Below, piece by piece: positions 22,705 to 30,018 of a DNA stretch of 64,000 nucleotides. How positions within the stretch are numbered: the first letter of the stretch is position 1; each line of letters begins with the position of its first letter. A program made the translations under genes and the position numbers. The notes below the pieces were generated by a model that worked only from the letters and a program-made list of their open reading frames with translations, was not told where the DNA came from and searched no databases. The stretch lies in the NCBI GenBank assembly GCA_004322215.1, contig SCSM01000023.1:62001-126000 (forward strand). The letters are read 5' to 3'. The DNA is from Bacteroidota bacterium. Lineage in GTDB: Bacteria; Bacteroidota; Ignavibacteria; Kapaibacteriales; UBA2268.

Positions 22705-23784
22705 TTACCAGCCGAAAAATGCAGTTGCTACCTGTTCTTCCTGAATTAATGTTGAAACTTTTCCTGTTGAATATTCTATTATTGTTAAATTCCCTTCATT
22801 TCTCCCGCTGTCCTTTGAGTATTCAAAAATGATATATTTTCCATCAGGTGACCATTGAGGTACAAGAAATCTTATTTCATTTTCAGGACCAGGGAGATCA
22901 GTAAATTGAATTTCAACTTTTGTATCTACATCAATCACCCAAAGATTACAGGGTTCTTTATAGTATGCAATTTTTTTATCATCAGGTGACCAAACAGGTT
23001 TTGAAATATATTCGGAAGTTTTAAGAATTTCTTTAATTGAACCATTGCTAACATTTATTATTGAAATTGAATATTGACTTGAAGCACTGTCAAATGAGAT
23101 AAATACAATTTCTTTTCCATCTGAAGATAAATTAAATCTATGAGTTGAAAGAAATTCTTCAGGTAAGGATAAGGATGAGGAATTAATTTTTCGTTTACTA
23201 TTTCCATTTATATCGTATATATAAAAACTCGGATTATTAAAATCCGGGTCAATTACATAAACTATACTATTGCCATCCTGAGAAAATTCTGCTTCTAAGA
23301 AAACATTTCCAAACCACCATGAACACGAATCTATTAAAATGTCGTTTGAGCCATCTATATTACACAGATGTAAATATTCAAATCTTCCACCAGAGAATAA
23401 TGACTTTTCCCTTATATACAACAATTTATTATTGTTAATTGATAAGGATGCATTTAAAATTCCCCATACATCTGTCAATATTGTATTTTCATTTGTTCCA
23501 TCTATATTGGAAACTTTTAATGTGTATTCTCCTGTACTGTCATTTACAATAGTAAATGCAATCTTTCCTCCTTGAGGTGGAGAATACAATTCTGCGTTTG
23601 TTTTGAAAATTATATTATTAGTACCATCTATATTCATTTGGTAAATATAAACCGGAATACCATAACCAGTAATAAAATTATAAAAAATCTTGTAATTACC
23701 TGATTGAGGATTGTCAGTAGCATTGTCTTTGCAGGAATTCATAAATATAATAGCAAAGAATAAAAACAAAAATAACGTTTTCAT
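22705..23784 (-). CDS. TolB-like (PD40) beta-propeller lipoprotein A
   Basis: The 359-residue lipoprotein (signal ending IFMNSC) carries repeated PD40/TolB-propeller blades recognisable by KPVWSPDDKKIAYY, PQWSPDGKYIIFEY and AEFSQDGNSIVYV. It is a paralogue of the next gene upstream (23813-24907): the first 30 residues after the signal and the last 20 (EEQVATAFFGW) are nearly the same. Such propellers bind periplasmic or outer-membrane partners; the role is not known. Confidence 0.88.
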   Translation of the reverse strand: MKTLFLFLFFAIIFMNSCKDNATDNPQSGNYKIFYNFITGYGIPVYIYQMNIDGTNNIIFKTNAELYSPPQGGKIAFTIVNDSTGEYTLKVSNIDGTNENTILTDVWGILNASLSINNNKLLYIREKSLFSGGRFEYLHLCNIDGSNDILIDSCSWWFGNVFLEAEFSQDGNSIVYVIDPDFNNPSFYIYDINGNSKRKINSSSLSLPEEFLSTHRFNLSSDGKEIVFISFDSASSQYSISIINVSNGSIKEILKTSEYISKPVWSPDDKKIAYYKEPCNLWVIDVDTKVEIQFTDLPGPENEIRFLVPQWSPDGKYIIFEYSKDSGRNEGNLTIIEYSTGKVSTLIQEEQVATAFFGW

Positions 23785-23812: not shown

Positions 23813-24907
23813 TCACCACCCAAAGAATGCAGTTCCTACCTGTTCCTCCTGAATGAGTATAGTAACTTTTCCTGTTTGAAATTCAACCAATGTTAAATTA
23901 CCCTGATTCATATCTCCACCTTTTTCATTCTTTGTATATTCAAATAAAATGTATTTACCATCGGGTGACCATTGGGGTGATAATGTTCCAATGTCGTTTC
24001 TTTTGCCGGGTAAATCAGTCAACTGTGTTGCTGTTTTGGTTTCCTTGTTTACCACCCAAAGATTACAGGGTTCAGCTAAAAACGCAATATTTTTTCCATC
24101 GGGCGACCAAGCCGGTTTTCCTAAATATTTATTAACCGAATAAATATTTGATATTGTTCCTGTGGCTACATTCAATATAGTTACAAGCATTTCTCCTGTT
24201 TGTTTATCCCTTGTTATCACTGAAATATCTTTCCCGTCAGGAGACCAACGGAAAGAATAGAAAGCAAAGGATGAAGCAATTGTTATTGGTGATTGATTGA
24301 TTCTTCTTTTATTATTCCCGTTTAAATCGCATACATTAATGTATTCTTTATTAGCTTGTGACCAATCAATATAAGCGATTGAATTTCCGTCAGGTGAAAT
24401 TTCTGCTTCAATACTAAAATCATCGGATTGAGAAATCATTGTGGAATCTAATATTTTATCATCTGAACCATCGGGATTACAAACATGAAGATAGCTTGTA
24501 AAATCATACGATGGTGTATGGTCCATATCTACGTACAGAATTTTATCTCCTTTTGGTGACAACTCGGCATCCCGAAGAATATCTCCGAATGAATTAACTA
24601 AAACCTCGTTTGTACCATCTGTTGAGGATACTTTTAAATTTAATTTTCTAGCAATTGTATCAACTTCAATGAACACCATTTTTCCATTTTGAGTTTTTGA
24701 AAATATTGCTGAATTGCTTTTAAGAAAAGTAACATTACTCAAATCAGGATTAATGGAATATATACTACCTAATTCTTCATCTTCAGTAATATAAGTATAA
24801 AAAATCTTGTAATTGCCCGGCTGTGGATTGTCAGTAGCATTATCTTTGCAGGAATTCATAAATATAACTACAAATAATAAAAATAAAAAGAAACCTGTCT
24901 TTTTCAT
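23813..24907 (-). CDS. TolB-like (PD40) beta-propeller lipoprotein B
   Basis: This 364-residue lipoprotein (VVIFMNSCKDNATDNPQ) has the same PD40 blades as its downstream neighbour (FRWSPDGKDISVI, PAWSPDGKNIAFL, PQWSPDGKYILFEY) and the shared tail EEQVGTAFFGW, so the pair arose by tandem duplication. The start is set at ATG 24907, preceded by GGAG; a TTG four codons earlier overlaps that ribosome-binding site and is not the start. Confidence 0.88.
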   Translation of the reverse strand: MKKTGFFLFLLFVVIFMNSCKDNATDNPQPGNYKIFYTYITEDEELGSIYSINPDLSNVTFLKSNSAIFSKTQNGKMVFIEVDTIARKLNLKVSSTDGTNEVLVNSFGDILRDAELSPKGDKILYVDMDHTPSYDFTSYLHVCNPDGSDDKILDSTMISQSDDFSIEAEISPDGNSIAYIDWSQANKEYINVCDLNGNNKRRINQSPITIASSFAFYSFRWSPDGKDISVITRDKQTGEMLVTILNVATGTISNIYSVNKYLGKPAWSPDGKNIAFLAEPCNLWVVNKETKTATQLTDLPGKRNDIGTLSPQWSPDGKYILFEYTKNEKGGDMNQGNLTLVEFQTGKVTILIQEEQVGTAFFGW

Positions 24908-25075
24908 TTTATACTCCAAATTGTTATTTAAGCAAAATTTATATTATTCGTTTTATTGCTTTCGGTTATATTTATATGTTAAAAGTGAATGTTAATTTGT
25001 TATTAGCAAATTTTAATTATCAATAAGCAATTTAAAGATTAATCAAATTAAAACAAAGGAGAATTTCTATATAAA

Positions 25076-25819
25076 TTATTCATACAACTCATATCTGATG
25101 AGTTCATATAATAAATTTAAATTTGATGAATCAACTTTAGAACTTAATACATAATATTCAAATTTTATAGGACCCAAATCAGGCACATAGTAAGGGATAT
25201 AACTCAGACTGAATTTCACTTTAGTGCTTTTATCTTCCAAACCATTAATGAATTTCAATCCGTTGAAACTGCCAGCAGGAACGACAACACCCGAGAAATT
25301 ATCAATATTTGTCCACCTGTAAAATTCATAATTCATTTCTTCATATTGTTCAGTTGTATCATTATAAACAATCGTATGCATATCATCATATTTACAAGCT
25401 AAATATGGAGACGATAGAGAAGGGTATTGTGCTTCAAGTGTTGATCGGTTATCGCAAATGTTGCATTTCATCCACAATCCGGCATCAGTATTTGTAAGGT
25501 ATAATATACTATTAATATCATTTATCCACATCACCTCAAACCATTTTTCATTATTTTGGAGTAATTCATTAACAACTTTAATCGTATCAAAATATTCCCT
25601 CACAAAAGAACCCGATTTGAATTCTTTAACATTAAATATCCAGTTATTTCCGACATGAAGTGGCATAATTACATTATGAGTCTGGTCGGTCAGGACATAA
25701 TTGTAATGAATGTCATACTTATTGATATTCTCATCAGAATTGATAATATCTTTACATGATGATAAAAGTAATATTAATAATAAGCTGAGTTGCAGTACAA
25801 TTAAAAAATAATTTTTCAT
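25076..25819 (-). CDS. Lipoprotein of unknown function (envelope cluster)
   Basis: The 247-residue lipoprotein has a clean signal (LLLILLLSSC). The mature part begins with IMPLHVGNNWIFNV, a motif shared with the next gene (LLPLKKGNFWVYKF), and both contain a central T-N-T/N-D/N-A/N-G-V/L-W segment and a G-x-F-N-C/G-x-K-F-I motif. They are therefore divergent paralogues. It is the last gene in the same-strand series after the ECF sigma factor, so it may belong to its regulon. No known domain. Confidence 0.8.
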   Translation of the reverse strand: MKNYFLIVLQLSLLLILLLSSCKDIINSDENINKYDIHYNYVLTDQTHNVIMPLHVGNNWIFNVKEFKSGSFVREYFDTIKVVNELLQNNEKWFEVMWINDINSILYLTNTDAGLWMKCNICDNRSTLEAQYPSLSSPYLACKYDDMHTIVYNDTTEQYEEMNYEFYRWTNIDNFSGVVVPAGSFNGLKFINGLEDKSTKVKFSLSYIPYYVPDLGPIKFEYYVLSSKVDSSNLNLLYELIRYELYE

Positions 25820-25828
25820 GTGAACACC

Positions 25829-26578
25829 TTAATATAGTTTATATTCTTTTAATGTATATGTCAATAATTTTTCTTTTTTTGTTTCCCTACCTTTGAAGTA
25901 GGTAATATGATAAATTTCTTCTTTGACTTTACCTACATTCAATGCATAATAATAAATTGACTGATAGTATGTTAATGTATCATTACCCAGGTCGTAAAGT
26001 TTGAAATTATTATAAGACTCTATAAATTTATAACAATTAAAATTGCCTGCTTCAACAGTTAAATATTGATTGGTTTCGATTTTCAGTTGTCTTTCAGCTT
26101 TTAAGTAGTTATATGATGTATCATGAGAATGAAATAACCATTTATAAGCTTCTGAATAATATATTTCATTATTATTAGCAGGATATTTTACTTCCAGATA
26201 ATTCAAATTATAAGTAAACAAGTCGTGAAACCATACTCCATTGTTGGTATTTGTGAGGAAAATCTTGTAATCCATGCATACCGGTGAGACACAATTTGCA
26301 TTGGATAGGATGAAAAAATTTTCTCCGCTAAATAAAGTATCTCCGGTTACAGTCAAAGTATCATATCCGTACATAATGGTATTTATATCGGTAGTATCAT
26401 AAACAAACTTATACACCCAAAAGTTACCCTTTTTGAGAGGCAAAAGAACATCATTTGACTGGTCTTCTTTTATTTTAATATAGTTTCCTGTTGTTTTAAT
26501 AATGTTATCATTAGGATTTGTCGTATCATTACAACTGATAATTATTAAGCACAAAATAAAAATGCAAAGTTGCTTCAT
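25829..26578 (-). CDS. Lipoprotein of unknown function, paralogue of the next gene
   Basis: The 249-residue lipoprotein (signal ending LIIISC) shares the PLKKGNFWVYKF start and VEAGNFNCYKFIE motif with the 25076-25819 protein. It starts 9 bases downstream of the anti-sigma gene, so it is likely co-transcribed with the sigma/anti-sigma pair and could be part of the envelope function that system watches over. No family name is recognised. Confidence 0.8.
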   Translation of the reverse strand: MKQLCIFILCLIIISCNDTTNPNDNIIKTTGNYIKIKEDQSNDVLLPLKKGNFWVYKFVYDTTDINTIMYGYDTLTVTGDTLFSGENFFILSNANCVSPVCMDYKIFLTNTNNGVWFHDLFTYNLNYLEVKYPANNNEIYYSEAYKWLFHSHDTSYNYLKAERQLKIETNQYLTVEAGNFNCYKFIESYNNFKLYDLGNDTLTYYQSIYYYALNVGKVKEEIYHITYFKGRETKKEKLLTYTLKEYKLY

Positions 26579-26587
26579 TTCACACTC

Positions 26588-27745
26588 CTAAAATTTATAA
26601 TTAATACCGAAATTTAATCCGATTTTTGATGCAGAAAACCATTCCTGATTATGCGTAAAAAACATATTACTATATTCAAAGGTTTCTACTAATGAAAAAT
26701 CATTATAAAAATTATAAGTGATTCCTATTGAGGGTCTTAATATAATCCCATATTTATTTATTGCTAAATTCATTTGACCGAATGGCTGCAAATCGTCGTT
26801 AATTGGATATCTCTTCCTGATACTTATCCCATAGCTTGTCAGGTTGGGATTTTGTTCGAGTTTATATTTCAAATTATTGCTTATTTTTTCTTCATATTTG
26901 ACAAAAAATGTTTCCTGCCTGATATTAATCCCAAAATCAAAGTTATCAACTATACTAAAAAACATATCAAATCCGAGATTATTAAAATCTGAGATTTTTG
27001 AGGGCTTAACTGTCTCTCTGGCTAAACTCCAATTCGTTGACCATCTTGCTTCAACTGAAATTCCAATCTTTTCATTACTTGCATTATCTTCTTTCTGAAT
27101 TTCAGTCAAATCATTTAAATTTTTTGTCAAATCGGAAATATCAATGATTTTTGACTTGTCATTTACATCATATATAATATTTCCGTTTTCAGGAATGATA
27201 AGTTCTGAAATTGCTATTATAGAATTATTATTATTAATAGGTAAAGATTCATTAACAGAATTATTGATTTTAGGTTGGAACTTAGTTTTAATTATTTGTT
27301 TATTATATGACAAAGAATTGTTTTTCATATTGGAATTACTTTGTGTTTCGCTATTTTGTAATGGAGGTATGGGTATTTGAGTAGCTAAATCTGATTTTGC
27401 CCCCTGTGATAAAAAATTGGTTGATACGAAAAACACTGTTGAAGCAAGAACAGCACCAATACCGCAGGAGAGTAAATTCAATTTAGTACCCTGGATGAAT
27501 TTAGCGAAAGCAGGTACATGTTTTACTGGAATGCTAATATTCAAGTCACGGTAAACGGCTGCCTTTAATTCGGAAGAGGGTGAATAATAGGCAGCACTTG
27601 ACTTAATTGCATTGTTTATTCCGAGCAGACTTTTATATTCGGCTCTGAGAGAGTCATCCGCAGAAATCATCGAGAAAAGTTCCCTCTCTCTGTCTTCGGG
27701 TAATTCCCCGTCAATAAACTGAACTAAATTATCTTCGTAATCCAT
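26588..27745 (-). CDS. Anti-sigma factor fused to an outer-membrane barrel-like domain
   Basis: The 385-residue protein starts with an anti-sigma-type cytosolic segment (1-60, LVQFIDGELPEDRERELFSMI) lacking the usual zinc ligands. One membrane helix (about 89-111) follows, then a Gln/Asn/Ser-rich linker (112-225). The C-terminal third (about 230-385) has amphipathic strands and ends in GINYKF, as outer-membrane barrels do. This matches the layout of the dual membrane-spanning anti-sigma (Dma) factors described in Bacteroides thetaiotaomicron. It lies 12 bases after the ECF sigma gene, its probable partner. Confidence 0.8.
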   Translation of the reverse strand: MDYEDNLVQFIDGELPEDRERELFSMISADDSLRAEYKSLLGINNAIKSSAAYYSPSSELKAAVYRDLNISIPVKHVPAFAKFIQGTKLNLLSCGIGAVLASTVFFVSTNFLSQGAKSDLATQIPIPPLQNSETQSNSNMKNNSLSYNKQIIKTKFQPKINNSVNESLPINNNNSIIAISELIIPENGNIIYDVNDKSKIIDISDLTKNLNDLTEIQKEDNASNEKIGISVEARWSTNWSLARETVKPSKISDFNNLGFDMFFSIVDNFDFGINIRQETFFVKYEEKISNNLKYKLEQNPNLTSYGISIRKRYPINDDLQPFGQMNLAINKYGIILRPSIGITYNFYNDFSLVETFEYSNMFFTHNQEWFSASKIGLNFGINYKF

Positions 27746-27757
27746 TTTTTTCTCCGT

Positions 27758-28345
27758 TTATTTTTCATTAAACTCATTAATATATGGTTCCAGGATTTTC
27801 TTAACCATATTAGTTGACCTTGTTACTCTTTTTCTAATACAATCCACGCTTTCATTACAAATTTTTGCTATTTCATCATTTGATAATTCCTGGTATCTCT
27901 TAAGTATAAATGCTTCTTTATAGACATCGTCGAGTGAATCAACTGCAATGTGAATTAACTCGAGCATTTCGTTTTTATCGTGTTGTTTATTTGTTGTTTC
28001 CAAACCGGTATCAAAATCCGATAAGTTCAATAACTCCTGTTTAAATTTATTTTCACGGTTTATTTTTCTTGCTTTGTCAACAATGATATGTTTTACTGTC
28101 ATAATTAGGAAAGGAAGAACTTTTTCGACAGATTTACCTAATTTAATATAATCAAAGAATTTGAGCCACGCATCGTGAAATACTAAGTCAGATTCGTTTC
28201 TGTTTCTTGTCAGGAAAAGGCAATATGAAAATAATTTACTTGAATACCTGTTGAAAAGGACATCGAAGGCATAATCGCATATTGGTTTATCCTCTCTCAA
28301 AAGGGGGATTAGTTCTTCATCGCAGTATGCATTATAATTATTCAT
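27758..28345 (-). CDS. ECF-type RNA polymerase sigma factor
   Basis: The 195-residue protein has region 2 (FDVLFNRYSSKLFSYCLFLTRN ... VFHDAWLKFFDYI) and region 4 (LDDVYKEAFILKRYQELSNDEIAKIC...VTRS) with no region 1 or 3, as in ECF sigma factors. It is the first gene of a cluster with the barrel-fused anti-sigma factor and two lipoproteins, so it is probably released by an envelope signal. The minus-strand upstream sequence contains TAACC and TATAAT 13 bases apart, which may be its promoter, but I am not sure. Confidence 0.92.
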   Translation of the reverse strand: MNNYNAYCDEELIPLLREDKPICDYAFDVLFNRYSSKLFSYCLFLTRNRNESDLVFHDAWLKFFDYIKLGKSVEKVLPFLIMTVKHIIVDKARKINRENKFKQELLNLSDFDTGLETTNKQHDKNEMLELIHIAVDSLDDVYKEAFILKRYQELSNDEIAKICNESVDCIRKRVTRSTNMVKKILEPYINEFNEK

Positions 28346-28417
28346 CGCAATTTGTCCTCATTATAATGTAATGACGCCGGTTACGCTAATATTGGGACAA
28401 ATCTTCTAAATTCCAAA

Positions 28418-28528: not shown

Positions 28529-29362
28529 ATGAAGAGTTCGACAATTAAGAAAATAAACATTGCATCGCCGTTAATTTTTAGTTCTTTTCTTTTACTTGTT
28601 TTTATATTACCTGATTTTGGTGCTGAACCTCAACCAGAGTCAACGTTACGTTCAATCCCAAATGAAGCATTCGGATTCGGTGAAAAACTGGAGTATAAGG
28701 TCGGCTATAAATTTATCACAGCAGGAACAGGTTATTTTTGGATTAATCCAAAGCCGGTTATCAGAGGTGATACCCGTCAATGTTATGATATACGGTTCAG
28801 AGTACAATCGCTGGAAAGCTTACGCTGGATTTATAAGGTTGATGACAATTATAAAACCTTACTGGATGTTTCGGGGATATTTCCGTGGGAGTTTGAACAA
28901 CATGTCAGAGAAGGGAATTACAGGAAAGATGCTAAAGCGGTTTTCGACCAGGTCAATAATGCTGCATATACAAATGATAAAAAATACAAGGTTCAGCCAT
29001 ACGTTCACGACATTGTATCTGCATTCTTTTATGTCCGAACGCTCGATTTGGGCTCGATGAAAAAGGGAAATATATTTTATTTGCAGAACTTTTTCGAAGA
29101 TACAACGTACAATTTAGGTGTGAAGATAATCGGAAGAGAAACAATAGATGTGGAAGCCGGGAAGTTCAGATGTATTGTTATTCAGCCGCTTGTCGTTCAG
29201 GGAGGATTATTTAAAAGCGAAGGGAATATATATATTTGGCTTACCGATGACGACAGGAAAATTCCGGTTAAAGTTGCAACGAAAATATTAATTGGGTATG
29301 TCGGTGCAGAGCTTATAAAATATAGTGGAATTCGTGGTCCGATTGATGCGAAAATAGATTAA
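28529..29362 (+). CDS. DUF3108 domain-containing periplasmic protein
   Basis: The 277-residue protein has an N-terminal signal segment (about 1-33) and then the DUF3108 opening GEKLEYKVGYKFITAGTG, with later conserved strands (GNIYIWLTDDDRKIPVKV). DUF3108 proteins have a lipoprotein-carrier-like beta fold and are common near LolA-type genes in this group. A LolA homologue follows 29 bases downstream, so the two probably act together in moving lipids or lipoproteins across the periplasm. Confidence 0.88.
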   Translation: MKSSTIKKINIASPLIFSSFLLLVFILPDFGAEPQPESTLRSIPNEAFGFGEKLEYKVGYKFITAGTGYFWINPKPVIRGDTRQCYDIRFRVQSLESLRWIYKVDDNYKTLLDVSGIFPWEFEQHVREGNYRKDAKAVFDQVNNAAYTNDKKYKVQPYVHDIVSAFFYVRTLDLGSMKKGNIFYLQNFFEDTTYNLGVKIIGRETIDVEAGKFRCIVIQPLVVQGGLFKSEGNIYIWLTDDDRKIPVKVATKILIGYVGAELIKYSGIRGPIDAKID

Positions 29363-29391
29363 GAATTTTTTATTAAAATAGGAGATTTGAA

Positions 29392-30018
29392 ATGAAGAGA
29401 ATTTATTTTTCCATACTGGTGCTGTTTGTAATAAGCTTTGGATTAATTTATTCGCAAACATTGAATAAAGAAGAGGTATTTAAAAAACTTTTGGATAAAT
29501 ACGGCAAAATGAAATCAGTTTCATTCAAATTTACTTCACCTGACGGAAAAAATTTGGGAGGTTCCCTGATTGCCGAAAGAGGGAACAAATATGTGATTGA
29601 TACCAGGGACAGGGATGTTTATTGCAATGGCGAAACAATATGGAACCATTCTATCAGTGATAATGATGTTCTGATAAGTGTTTTTGACAAGTCGAATATA
29701 AGCCCTATGTCGCTCGAAAGTTTTTTCTTTAATTTTCTGGAACTATATGTTCCGACTGAGTTGAGTGAATCAACATCTTCTCTTGGTACAAAATCTTTTA
29801 TCATTCAATTATCTCCCAAAGGAGAAAAATCTTATGATATTGATGATGTTAAAATATGGATTGAACCAAAGAATTATGTAATCAAATCTGTCAAATTGAA
29901 AATTGCCGGGAAAATCCAGACTTTAAATATCGAAGATTTGGTACTTGATAAGAATTACCCGGATAAAACATTTGAATATGTTTCAACCGGTAAAGAACAT
30001 ATTATCGATTTCAGGTAA
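29392..30018 (+). CDS. LolA-like periplasmic lipoprotein carrier
   Basis: The 208-residue protein has a signal peptide (1-21, cleaved after LIYSQ) and a LolA-like domain: KLLDKYGKMKSVSFKFTS followed by short strands (NKYVIDTRDRDVYCNGETIWNHS) and KIWIEPKNYVIKSVKLK. LolA ferries lipoproteins from the inner to the outer membrane. AGGAG precedes the ATG and the gene follows DUF3108 in a likely operon. Given the many lipoproteins in this window the role is sensible. Confidence 0.85.
   Translation: MKRIYFSILVLFVISFGLIYSQTLNKEEVFKKLLDKYGKMKSVSFKFTSPDGKNLGGSLIAERGNKYVIDTRDRDVYCNGETIWNHSISDNDVLISVFDKSNISPMSLESFFFNFLELYVPTELSESTSSLGTKSFIIQLSPKGEKSYDIDDVKIWIEPKNYVIKSVKLKIAGKIQTLNIEDLVLDKNYPDKTFEYVSTGKEHIIDFR

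Follow-up and report, generated by a model that had tools for sequence, protein, structure and literature searches.

Introduction

In cell-surface signalling through TonB-dependent transducers and FecR, the barrel and the anti-sigma factor are separate proteins (cf. the available part of PMC11637429). A single chain linking transcription control to the outer membrane is presented as a novel class, occurring solely among the Bacteroidota, in the accessible portion of PMC13088901, where the Dma layout is published. In Dma3, a sigma factor is described as fused ahead of the membrane helix. For the analogous EcfO-Reo pair of P. vulgatus, induction by envelope-harming antibacterial proteins is reported in the available excerpts of PMC9308784 and PMC13114119, with outer-membrane stress proposed as the signal. 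Here, a gene pair within a 64,000-nucleotide stretch of DNA (the window) was analyzed in relation to these systems. It probably encodes an ECF sigma factor and its cognate anti-sigma factor, the latter a single chain that would run from the cytosol to the outer membrane and release the sigma factor onto its own operon, in a layout built apart from that of the Dma proteins. The parts of the protein, its pairing, the barrel fold, the gene row, the spread of the family and the lack of detectable anti-sigma-domain kinship with Dma proteins are read from sequence and prediction.

Gene row and source genome

Six genes follow one another on the minus strand of the window: the ECF sigma gene, the 385-codon gene, two lipoprotein genes and two genes for lipoproteins of the PD40 kind. 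The first (27758-28345, minus strand) encodes an ECF sigma factor of 195 aa (P0002), which belongs to the clade of ECFs paired with the family described below and matches Sigma70_r4_2 at E 9.9e-8, over the cut-off, and Sigma70_r2 at E 0.0012, under the cut-off. The barrel-bearing anti-sigma protein of 385 aa is encoded downstream (26588-27745, minus strand) following a gap of 12 bp; both reading frames that an earlier note had paired as sigma and anti-sigma factor lie exactly at the positions it gave, with the ECF gene upstream. Gaps of 9 bp each precede the two lipoprotein genes on the same strand, the first of which (25829-26578; mature N-terminus CNDTTNPNDNI) is kept in the genus, while the second (25076-25819) has the mature N-terminus CKDIINSDENI; both products match DUF3108_like weakly. 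After a further 156 bp lies the PD40-kind pair, also on the minus strand. The gene at 23813-24919 encodes a PD40 beta-propeller lipoprotein, likely of the same operon or regulon in view of its synteny in a same-genus relative (L038); PD40 was tested on this product, and the gene at 22705-23784 was assigned as its paralogue. All six genes stand in the same order in L038, and the first four do so in another member of the genus (L037), the locus of which ends soon after. The lipoproteins claimed earlier to lie downstream are found within this conserved row. Divergent DUF3108 and LolA_2-like genes (28529-30018, plus strand) adjoin the operon, an arrangement shared by L038; the DUF3108 gene of L037 is more distant, with another ORF between.

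The source genome is 4.2 Mb in size and 97% complete. At this locus, Ignavibacteria bacterium RIFOXYC2_FULL_35_21 and an Ignavibacteriae groundwater MAG have the same sequence as two genomes from the window's genus, and a Candidatus Kapabacteria MAG has the same sequence as a genome from its family. NCBI assigns RIFOXYC2_FULL_35_21 to Ignavibacteriota and Kapaibacterium to Bacteroidota; the genome set analyzed here treats the group of the window as belonging to one phylum with the Bacteroides-like genomes that carry NigD.

Predicted architecture of the 385-residue protein

The structure of the window protein was predicted by AlphaFold from an alignment of 34 homologues, with a pTM of 0.45, so that the relative placement of the domains is not predicted. 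Four parts can be distinguished, all on the minus strand. Residues 1-67 (27545-27745) form a class I-like anti-sigma domain with predicted helices at 3-11, 17-29, 31-54 and 58-67. Residues 79-114 (27404-27511) form the inner-membrane helix, within which the most hydrophobic 19-residue stretch starts at residue 89 with a hydropathy of 1.97. Residues 115-226 (27068-27403) constitute a disordered periplasmic tether, recognized by low pLDDT (below 50 over residues 117-201) and low orthologue identity, its disordered length being about 110-120 residues. Finally, residues 227-385 (26591-27067) are predicted to form an outer-membrane barrel with a C-terminal beta-signal, the eight strands of which fall between residues 228 and 384, with block pLDDT values of 76-94 for residues 231-300 and 92-98 for residues 301-385. 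In PDB comparison, residues 224-385 matched NspA, OprF, OmpA, PagL, OmpW and a Legionella porin at Z 14-17, and the barrel is predicted on this basis to have the 8-stranded OmpA/NspA/OmpW fold. A soluble barrel or soluble periplasmic sandwich was rejected, as designed soluble barrels (Z 12.3) and avidins (10-11) scored lower than the outer-membrane barrels. The earlier note had named the sandwich as the outcome contrary to its reading, and no such fold appeared in the model or among the fold matches; the sequence of anti-sigma segment, one membrane helix, low-complexity linker and barrel ending in Phe that it had proposed agrees with both AlphaFold and the fold comparison. No Pfam or NCBIfam model reached its cut-off on the window protein, the nearest being OMP_b-brl at E 0.17, and OMP_b-brl was matched at E 0.01 or better in 3 of 34 relatives.

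The C terminus, GLNFGINYKF, is hydrophobic at positions -1, -3, -5, -7 and -9. Each of these positions is hydrophobic in 58 or 59 of the 59 members in the wider set of distinct long proteins (which includes L092 and L094 from the class-level relatives), and the chain ends with Phe in 48 members, with Leu in 8 and with Tyr in 3. Such an alternating pattern is known as the outer-membrane beta-signal. Across the family, the distance from the end of the helix to the barrel ranges from about 106 to 255 residues (median 134), and at about 3.4 Å per residue the tether, if extended, would be long enough to cross the periplasm. A conserved juxtamembrane proline was considered and dropped: P127 is at least 90% conserved in the first set, A1 (the first 36 loci minus L019, a contig-end fragment, and L033, with split frames), and the looser pattern occurs after the helix in 33/59 members against 17/59 in the next linker stretch. 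The L033 member is split into two frames, of 287 and 126 aa.

Two same-genus orthologues are 72 and 81% identical to the window protein in the anti-sigma part, 71 and 65% in the barrel, and 28 and 24% in the linker, which indicates conservation at both ends and drift in the tether. These values bear on whether the barrel serves as an anchor between the membranes without sensing, the anti-sigma factor acting like an ordinary RseA or RsiW. The poor conservation of the tether is consistent with such a role, as is the existence of short class I relatives without a barrel that have an ECF gene in the locus in 12 of 14 cases. We nevertheless regard it as unlikely, since the barrel is nearly as well conserved between orthologues as the anti-sigma domain and, among the best family matches listed, nearly all cover the full length of the model.

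Kinship of the anti-sigma domain with class I

By profile comparison, the anti-sigma domain is predicted to belong to class I (RsiW-type), in a form without zinc. A profile built from 29 domains, comprising 20 of the window type and nine related ones, matched RsiW in the PDB at E 9.4e-5 over positions 2-69. Of the 29 domains scanned, nine matched zf-HC2 at E up to 0.1; the domain of the window protein alone had no zf-HC2 match. The predicted four-helix pattern agrees with class I descriptions, a three-helix bundle plus a separate fourth helix, as given in the available text of PMC7406223. The Hx3Cx2C zinc motif is absent from the window protein, the sole Cys of which is residue 94, within the membrane helix. 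About 44% of class I domains lack Hx3Cx2C according to the same partial source (PMC7406223), so that the zinc motif is not required for class I. In HHalign comparisons, the window family domain reached probabilities of 98.4 with short Ignavibacterial anti-sigmas, 97.8 with three anti-sigmas having an AMPK_CBM-like tail, and 99.2 with ten class-level relatives together with the most divergent copy from the window's own genome. The proteins of L074, L075 and L077 are class I anti-sigmas with a C-terminal AMPK_CBM/CBM48-like domain beyond the membrane helix, tested by Pfam on L074 and assigned by resemblance for the other two. The portion of PMC7406223 available states that class I anti-sigmas adjoin only 6% of Bacteroidetes ECFs, which makes the class I domain of the window family more notable. 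A FecR-type identity was dropped, because no FecR domain was detected in the window protein or in any of the 34 members (Pfam, E 0.01).

Pairing with ECF sigma factors

Every full-length member of the first set (34 of 34) has an ECF gene directly upstream, with gaps of -4 to 52 bp, as do 57 of the 59 members of the wider set; the exceptions are L066, where an ECF frame overlaps by 104 bp, and L063. Among nine pairs from one genome, distances between the ECFs correlate with those between the anti-sigma domains (r 0.53, permutation p 0.0045). The corresponding correlation with barrel distances was r 0.39 (p 0.028), falling to r 0.19 (p 0.17) without an outlier pair. Adjacency and co-divergence suggest that the window anti-sigma would bind and inhibit its ECF sigma.

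A tree of 155 ECF sequences, in which the best clade was taken for each label, placed all 65 family ECFs in one clade of 75 with support of 0.914. The remainder of this clade consists of six ECFs beside short anti-sigmas and four unlabelled ones. A separate clade (support 0.962) holds 23 of the 25 labelled Dma-type ECFs, and one of the two strays groups with the sigma-fused ones. At least one labelled ECF (L109) adjoins a protein that reads as FecR-like, and the Dma-type labels are thus not perfect.

Size and spread of the family

Searching with the single protein returned seven matches in the window's genome, including itself, and nine were obtained with the profile; of 40 relatives, 36 were matched by the single protein and the other four by the profile. 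The nine family members of this genome adjoin its nine best ECF matches among 20, which score at E 9e-39 or better compared with 1.9e-20 for the tenth, seven of the nine ECFs having been part of the query alignment. Throughout the order, the family profile matched 120 of 123 genomes with at least 572 matches and up to 17 per genome; as full scoring was limited to at most 15 candidates in each genome and a match may be a piece in some cases, these are counts of matches rather than of proven full-length genes. Its recurrence within its own genome speaks against a chance construct, and its spread through the order shows that it is no oddity.

Among 198 genomes sampled from the phylum, 53 were positive; 16 of these belong to the order, and the remaining 37 lie outside it. 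For the best of the latter, 14 loci were retrieved (L068-L081, L068 being cut by the locus end), which contain anti-sigma proteins of 153-239 aa and, in 12 of the 14, an ECF gene. Ten related proteins were examined in two other families of the class (G162 and G197), eight of 431-599 aa and two of 230 and 263 aa. The last 200 residues of the eight long proteins match the family barrel with a probability of 90.8 over 124 columns.

Downstream lipoproteins and upstream motif

The first gene downstream encodes a lipoprotein by rule in 47 of 57 operons compared with 17 of 127 control ORFs, under a looser rule adopted after seeing the data, an earlier strict lipobox rule having given 22/57 against 69/525 in the control. 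On visual inspection, four or more of the ten misses resemble lipoproteins. In two of the 59 members, the next 200 bp downstream contain no ORF on the same strand. The mature N-termini tend towards the signature C-x-[DSN]-[PS]-[LI]-[GD]-[ILV]-D, drawn from the window genes (25076-26578) and the 57 operons in loci L001-L215, while the bodies fall into 23 BLAST families (52 proteins). A leave-family-out profile separated these N-termini from 31 control lipoproteins with an AUC of 0.935. The common signature may be due to either deep homology or a functional tag. In the latter sense, the co-encoded lipoprotein could be a ligand that plugs or caps the barrel, by which lipoprotein supply or transit across the outer membrane would be sensed. 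Its frequent position as the next gene and an N-terminus shared by so many body families speak for such a ligand; the signature may also be a relic of shared ancestry or serve in sorting, and it is weaker in the lipoprotein family of the window, with a held-out score of 3.1 against 12 for the best families. On balance, we consider this role of the lipoprotein doubtful.

Upstream of the operons, the two-box motif GTAAC-N16-TGTTA (spacing of 15-17 allowed) was present at 9/10 matches or more in 21 of 64 operons compared with 1.1 expected from shuffles, the motif having been discovered and counted on one and the same set. The reverse strand also scores in 17/64, because the motif is nearly palindromic. 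Its count elsewhere was 9 among 175 control upstream regions, 2 among 63 other ECF genes and 0 among 24 Dma-type operons. Examples upstream of ECF genes are L005, L031, L034 and L036. We take it as a candidate promoter motif in keeping with self-control of the operons, although its near-palindromic form means that it may instead be an operator. The full two-box motif is absent from the window's own operon, where GTAAC alone, a possible -35-like box, is located 39 bases before the ECF start (28380-28384, minus strand).

Proposed mechanism

The window anti-sigma is most likely an outer-membrane sentinel that would hold its sigma factor off and govern its own operon with the surface lipoproteins. 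From the parts and their arrangement we infer sigma binding, placement in both membranes in the cell, the trigger, proteolysis and the regulon. In the resting state, the N-terminal class I domain would keep the sigma factor at the inner membrane, while the barrel would be put into the outer membrane by BAM and linked by the disordered tether to the inner-membrane part. A ligand, damage, or failure of the barrel itself to insert would act as the trigger and be relayed along the tether, most likely through regulated proteolysis with RseP performing the final step and freeing the sigma factor, which would then transcribe its own operon and with it the genes for the surface lipoproteins downstream. 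As to origin, a barrel was probably joined to an ordinary single-pass class I anti-sigma in the lineage of the window.

The window's genome contains one RseP and one HtrA over the cut-offs. A second HtrA-like match (L227, G000:C38:48857-50014) reads with internal stops. The presence of RseP and HtrA, together with the induction of EcfO-Reo by envelope-harming proteins, favors regulated proteolysis triggered at the barrel, an assignment that is tentative as regards the exact trigger and more probably wrong than right. In E. coli, DegS is activated by free C-termini of outer-membrane proteins, and an uninserted barrel could therefore be the trigger itself.

Comparison with Dma proteins and other known systems

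The Dma/Reo-type proteins of Bacteroides resemble the window protein in their N-terminal sigma-binding part, single membrane helix, long disordered tether, C-terminal barrel and adjoining ECF gene, as far as the partial sources describe them. For comparison, a Dma-type set of 22 proteins was assembled by layout and synteny rather than by BT locus tags, from genomes regarded as Bacteroides-like on account of NigD in the genome itself or in another genome of its family. It was derived from 30 matches by leaving out six sigma-fused proteins as well as L177, L186 and L190, and by including L126. The set comprises the 409-aa protein of L118/L165, which has an ECF gene upstream and a divergent NigD gene beside it, and 21 further proteins. 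An ECF gene lies upstream of 21 of the 22, L169 starting near the end of its locus. In the AlphaFold model of L165, two helices (block pLDDT 62-78) precede the membrane helix, which is followed by disorder and a barrel of the 8-strand type; in the window family, four helices (block pLDDT 74-94) precede the membrane helix.

Whole profiles of 34 window-type and 22 Dma-type proteins aligned with a probability of 11.4 (E 0.0026), over 27 barrel columns only. Comparison of barrel with barrel gave 27.8 (E 0.00064), again over 27 columns, so that a remote link is possible and the two barrels may be distantly related. Pfam OMP_b-brl matched two Dma-type proteins at about 1e-7 to 1e-6. The anti-sigma domains compared alone gave an HHalign probability of 0.6, a lack of profile similarity that is compatible with a very ancient shared origin of two such short helical domains; when each set was split in half as a control, the halves gave 98.8-99.9, and the method can thus see domains of such size. 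The Dma-type domain profile found nothing in the PDB up to E 10. Sigma-fused proteins, used as a positive control for the Dma-type domain, scored 0.2, because the stretch ahead of their membrane helix is sigma region 4. The proteins of L185, L188 and L191-L194 combine a sigma factor, a membrane helix and a Dma-type C terminus in a single chain, and no anti-sigma domain is visible between these parts.

The Dma-type profile matched 19 of 122 genomes of the order, and of the four matches examined (L216-L219) only L216 reads as true. The other three, L217-L219, were rejected as other proteins matched on low-complexity or barrel stretches. L216 (667-1920, minus strand) encodes a Bacteroides-like Dma-type protein in a 7.9-Mb genome, and both lineages therefore coexist in the order. 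These data bear on whether the window protein is a divergent true Dma member whose anti-sigma domain has changed beyond recognition. The shared four-part layout, the adjoining ECF, the same barrel fold class and, in the set used, the same broad phylum agree with true membership, as do the weak 27-column barrel match and the occurrence of L216 in one genome of the order. It is very improbable all the same, given that the domain reaches 98 with class I anti-sigmas of other layouts against 0.6 with the Dma-type, that four helices stand against two, that the ECFs lie in separate clades, and that L216 scores 61 against the Dma-type domain and 0.2 against the window family. Direct descent of the window family from Dma was likewise not supported by the profiles. 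The earlier note had linked the protein to Dma as a far relative; the layout indeed corresponds to the one in the accessible portion of PMC13088901, while the kinship is not supported for the anti-sigma domain. The strong class I matches, the negligible Dma-type match and the separate ECF clades point to independent assembly, and the two groups seem to share an architecture that was assembled separately, at least in the sigma-binding half. The vesicle control ascribed to Dma need not carry over to the window family.

These findings describe a second lineage with a Dma-like layout and an unrelated sigma-binding domain, matched in 120 of 123 genomes of one order. Among the papers listed in literature searches, none pointed to such a layout outside Bacteroides. 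What had been a curiosity of gut Bacteroides becomes a design reached more than once, offering a natural control for the roles of barrel and tether apart from the anti-sigma domain, and a lipoprotein with a common N-terminus as a testable partner. A broader reading, which we hold to be quite unlikely, is that such proteins are a major form of ECF control in the order, each sensing the seating of its own barrel and reading the conserved N-terminal peptide of its paired surface lipoprotein.

Compared with known systems, the window family shares with TonB-dependent transducer and FecR signalling the passage of an outer-membrane signal to an ECF sigma. With the class I anti-sigmas (RsiW, RseA, zf-HC2/ASDI) it shares the four-helix pattern and the RsiW profile match; these occur in soluble or membrane-bound forms, none with a barrel in the available text of PMC7406223, whereas the window family adds a barrel and has lost the zinc ligands. 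The short Ignavibacterial ASD-TM and ASD-AMPK_CBM-like anti-sigmas (L069, L071-L081) have a homologous anti-sigma domain but, at 153-239 aa, leave no room for a barrel. In Dma-type systems, putative NigD lipoproteins belong to the regulon according to the portions available of PMC13088901, PMC9308784 and PMC13114119, and the operons of the window family likewise bear lipoproteins; NigD_N found no match in the window's genome. Dma-type proteins differ in an anti-sigma domain that is unrelated by profile and has two predicted helices instead of four, and in ECFs of another clade. The main finding is this layout as a system that spans the order and seems to have been built independently.
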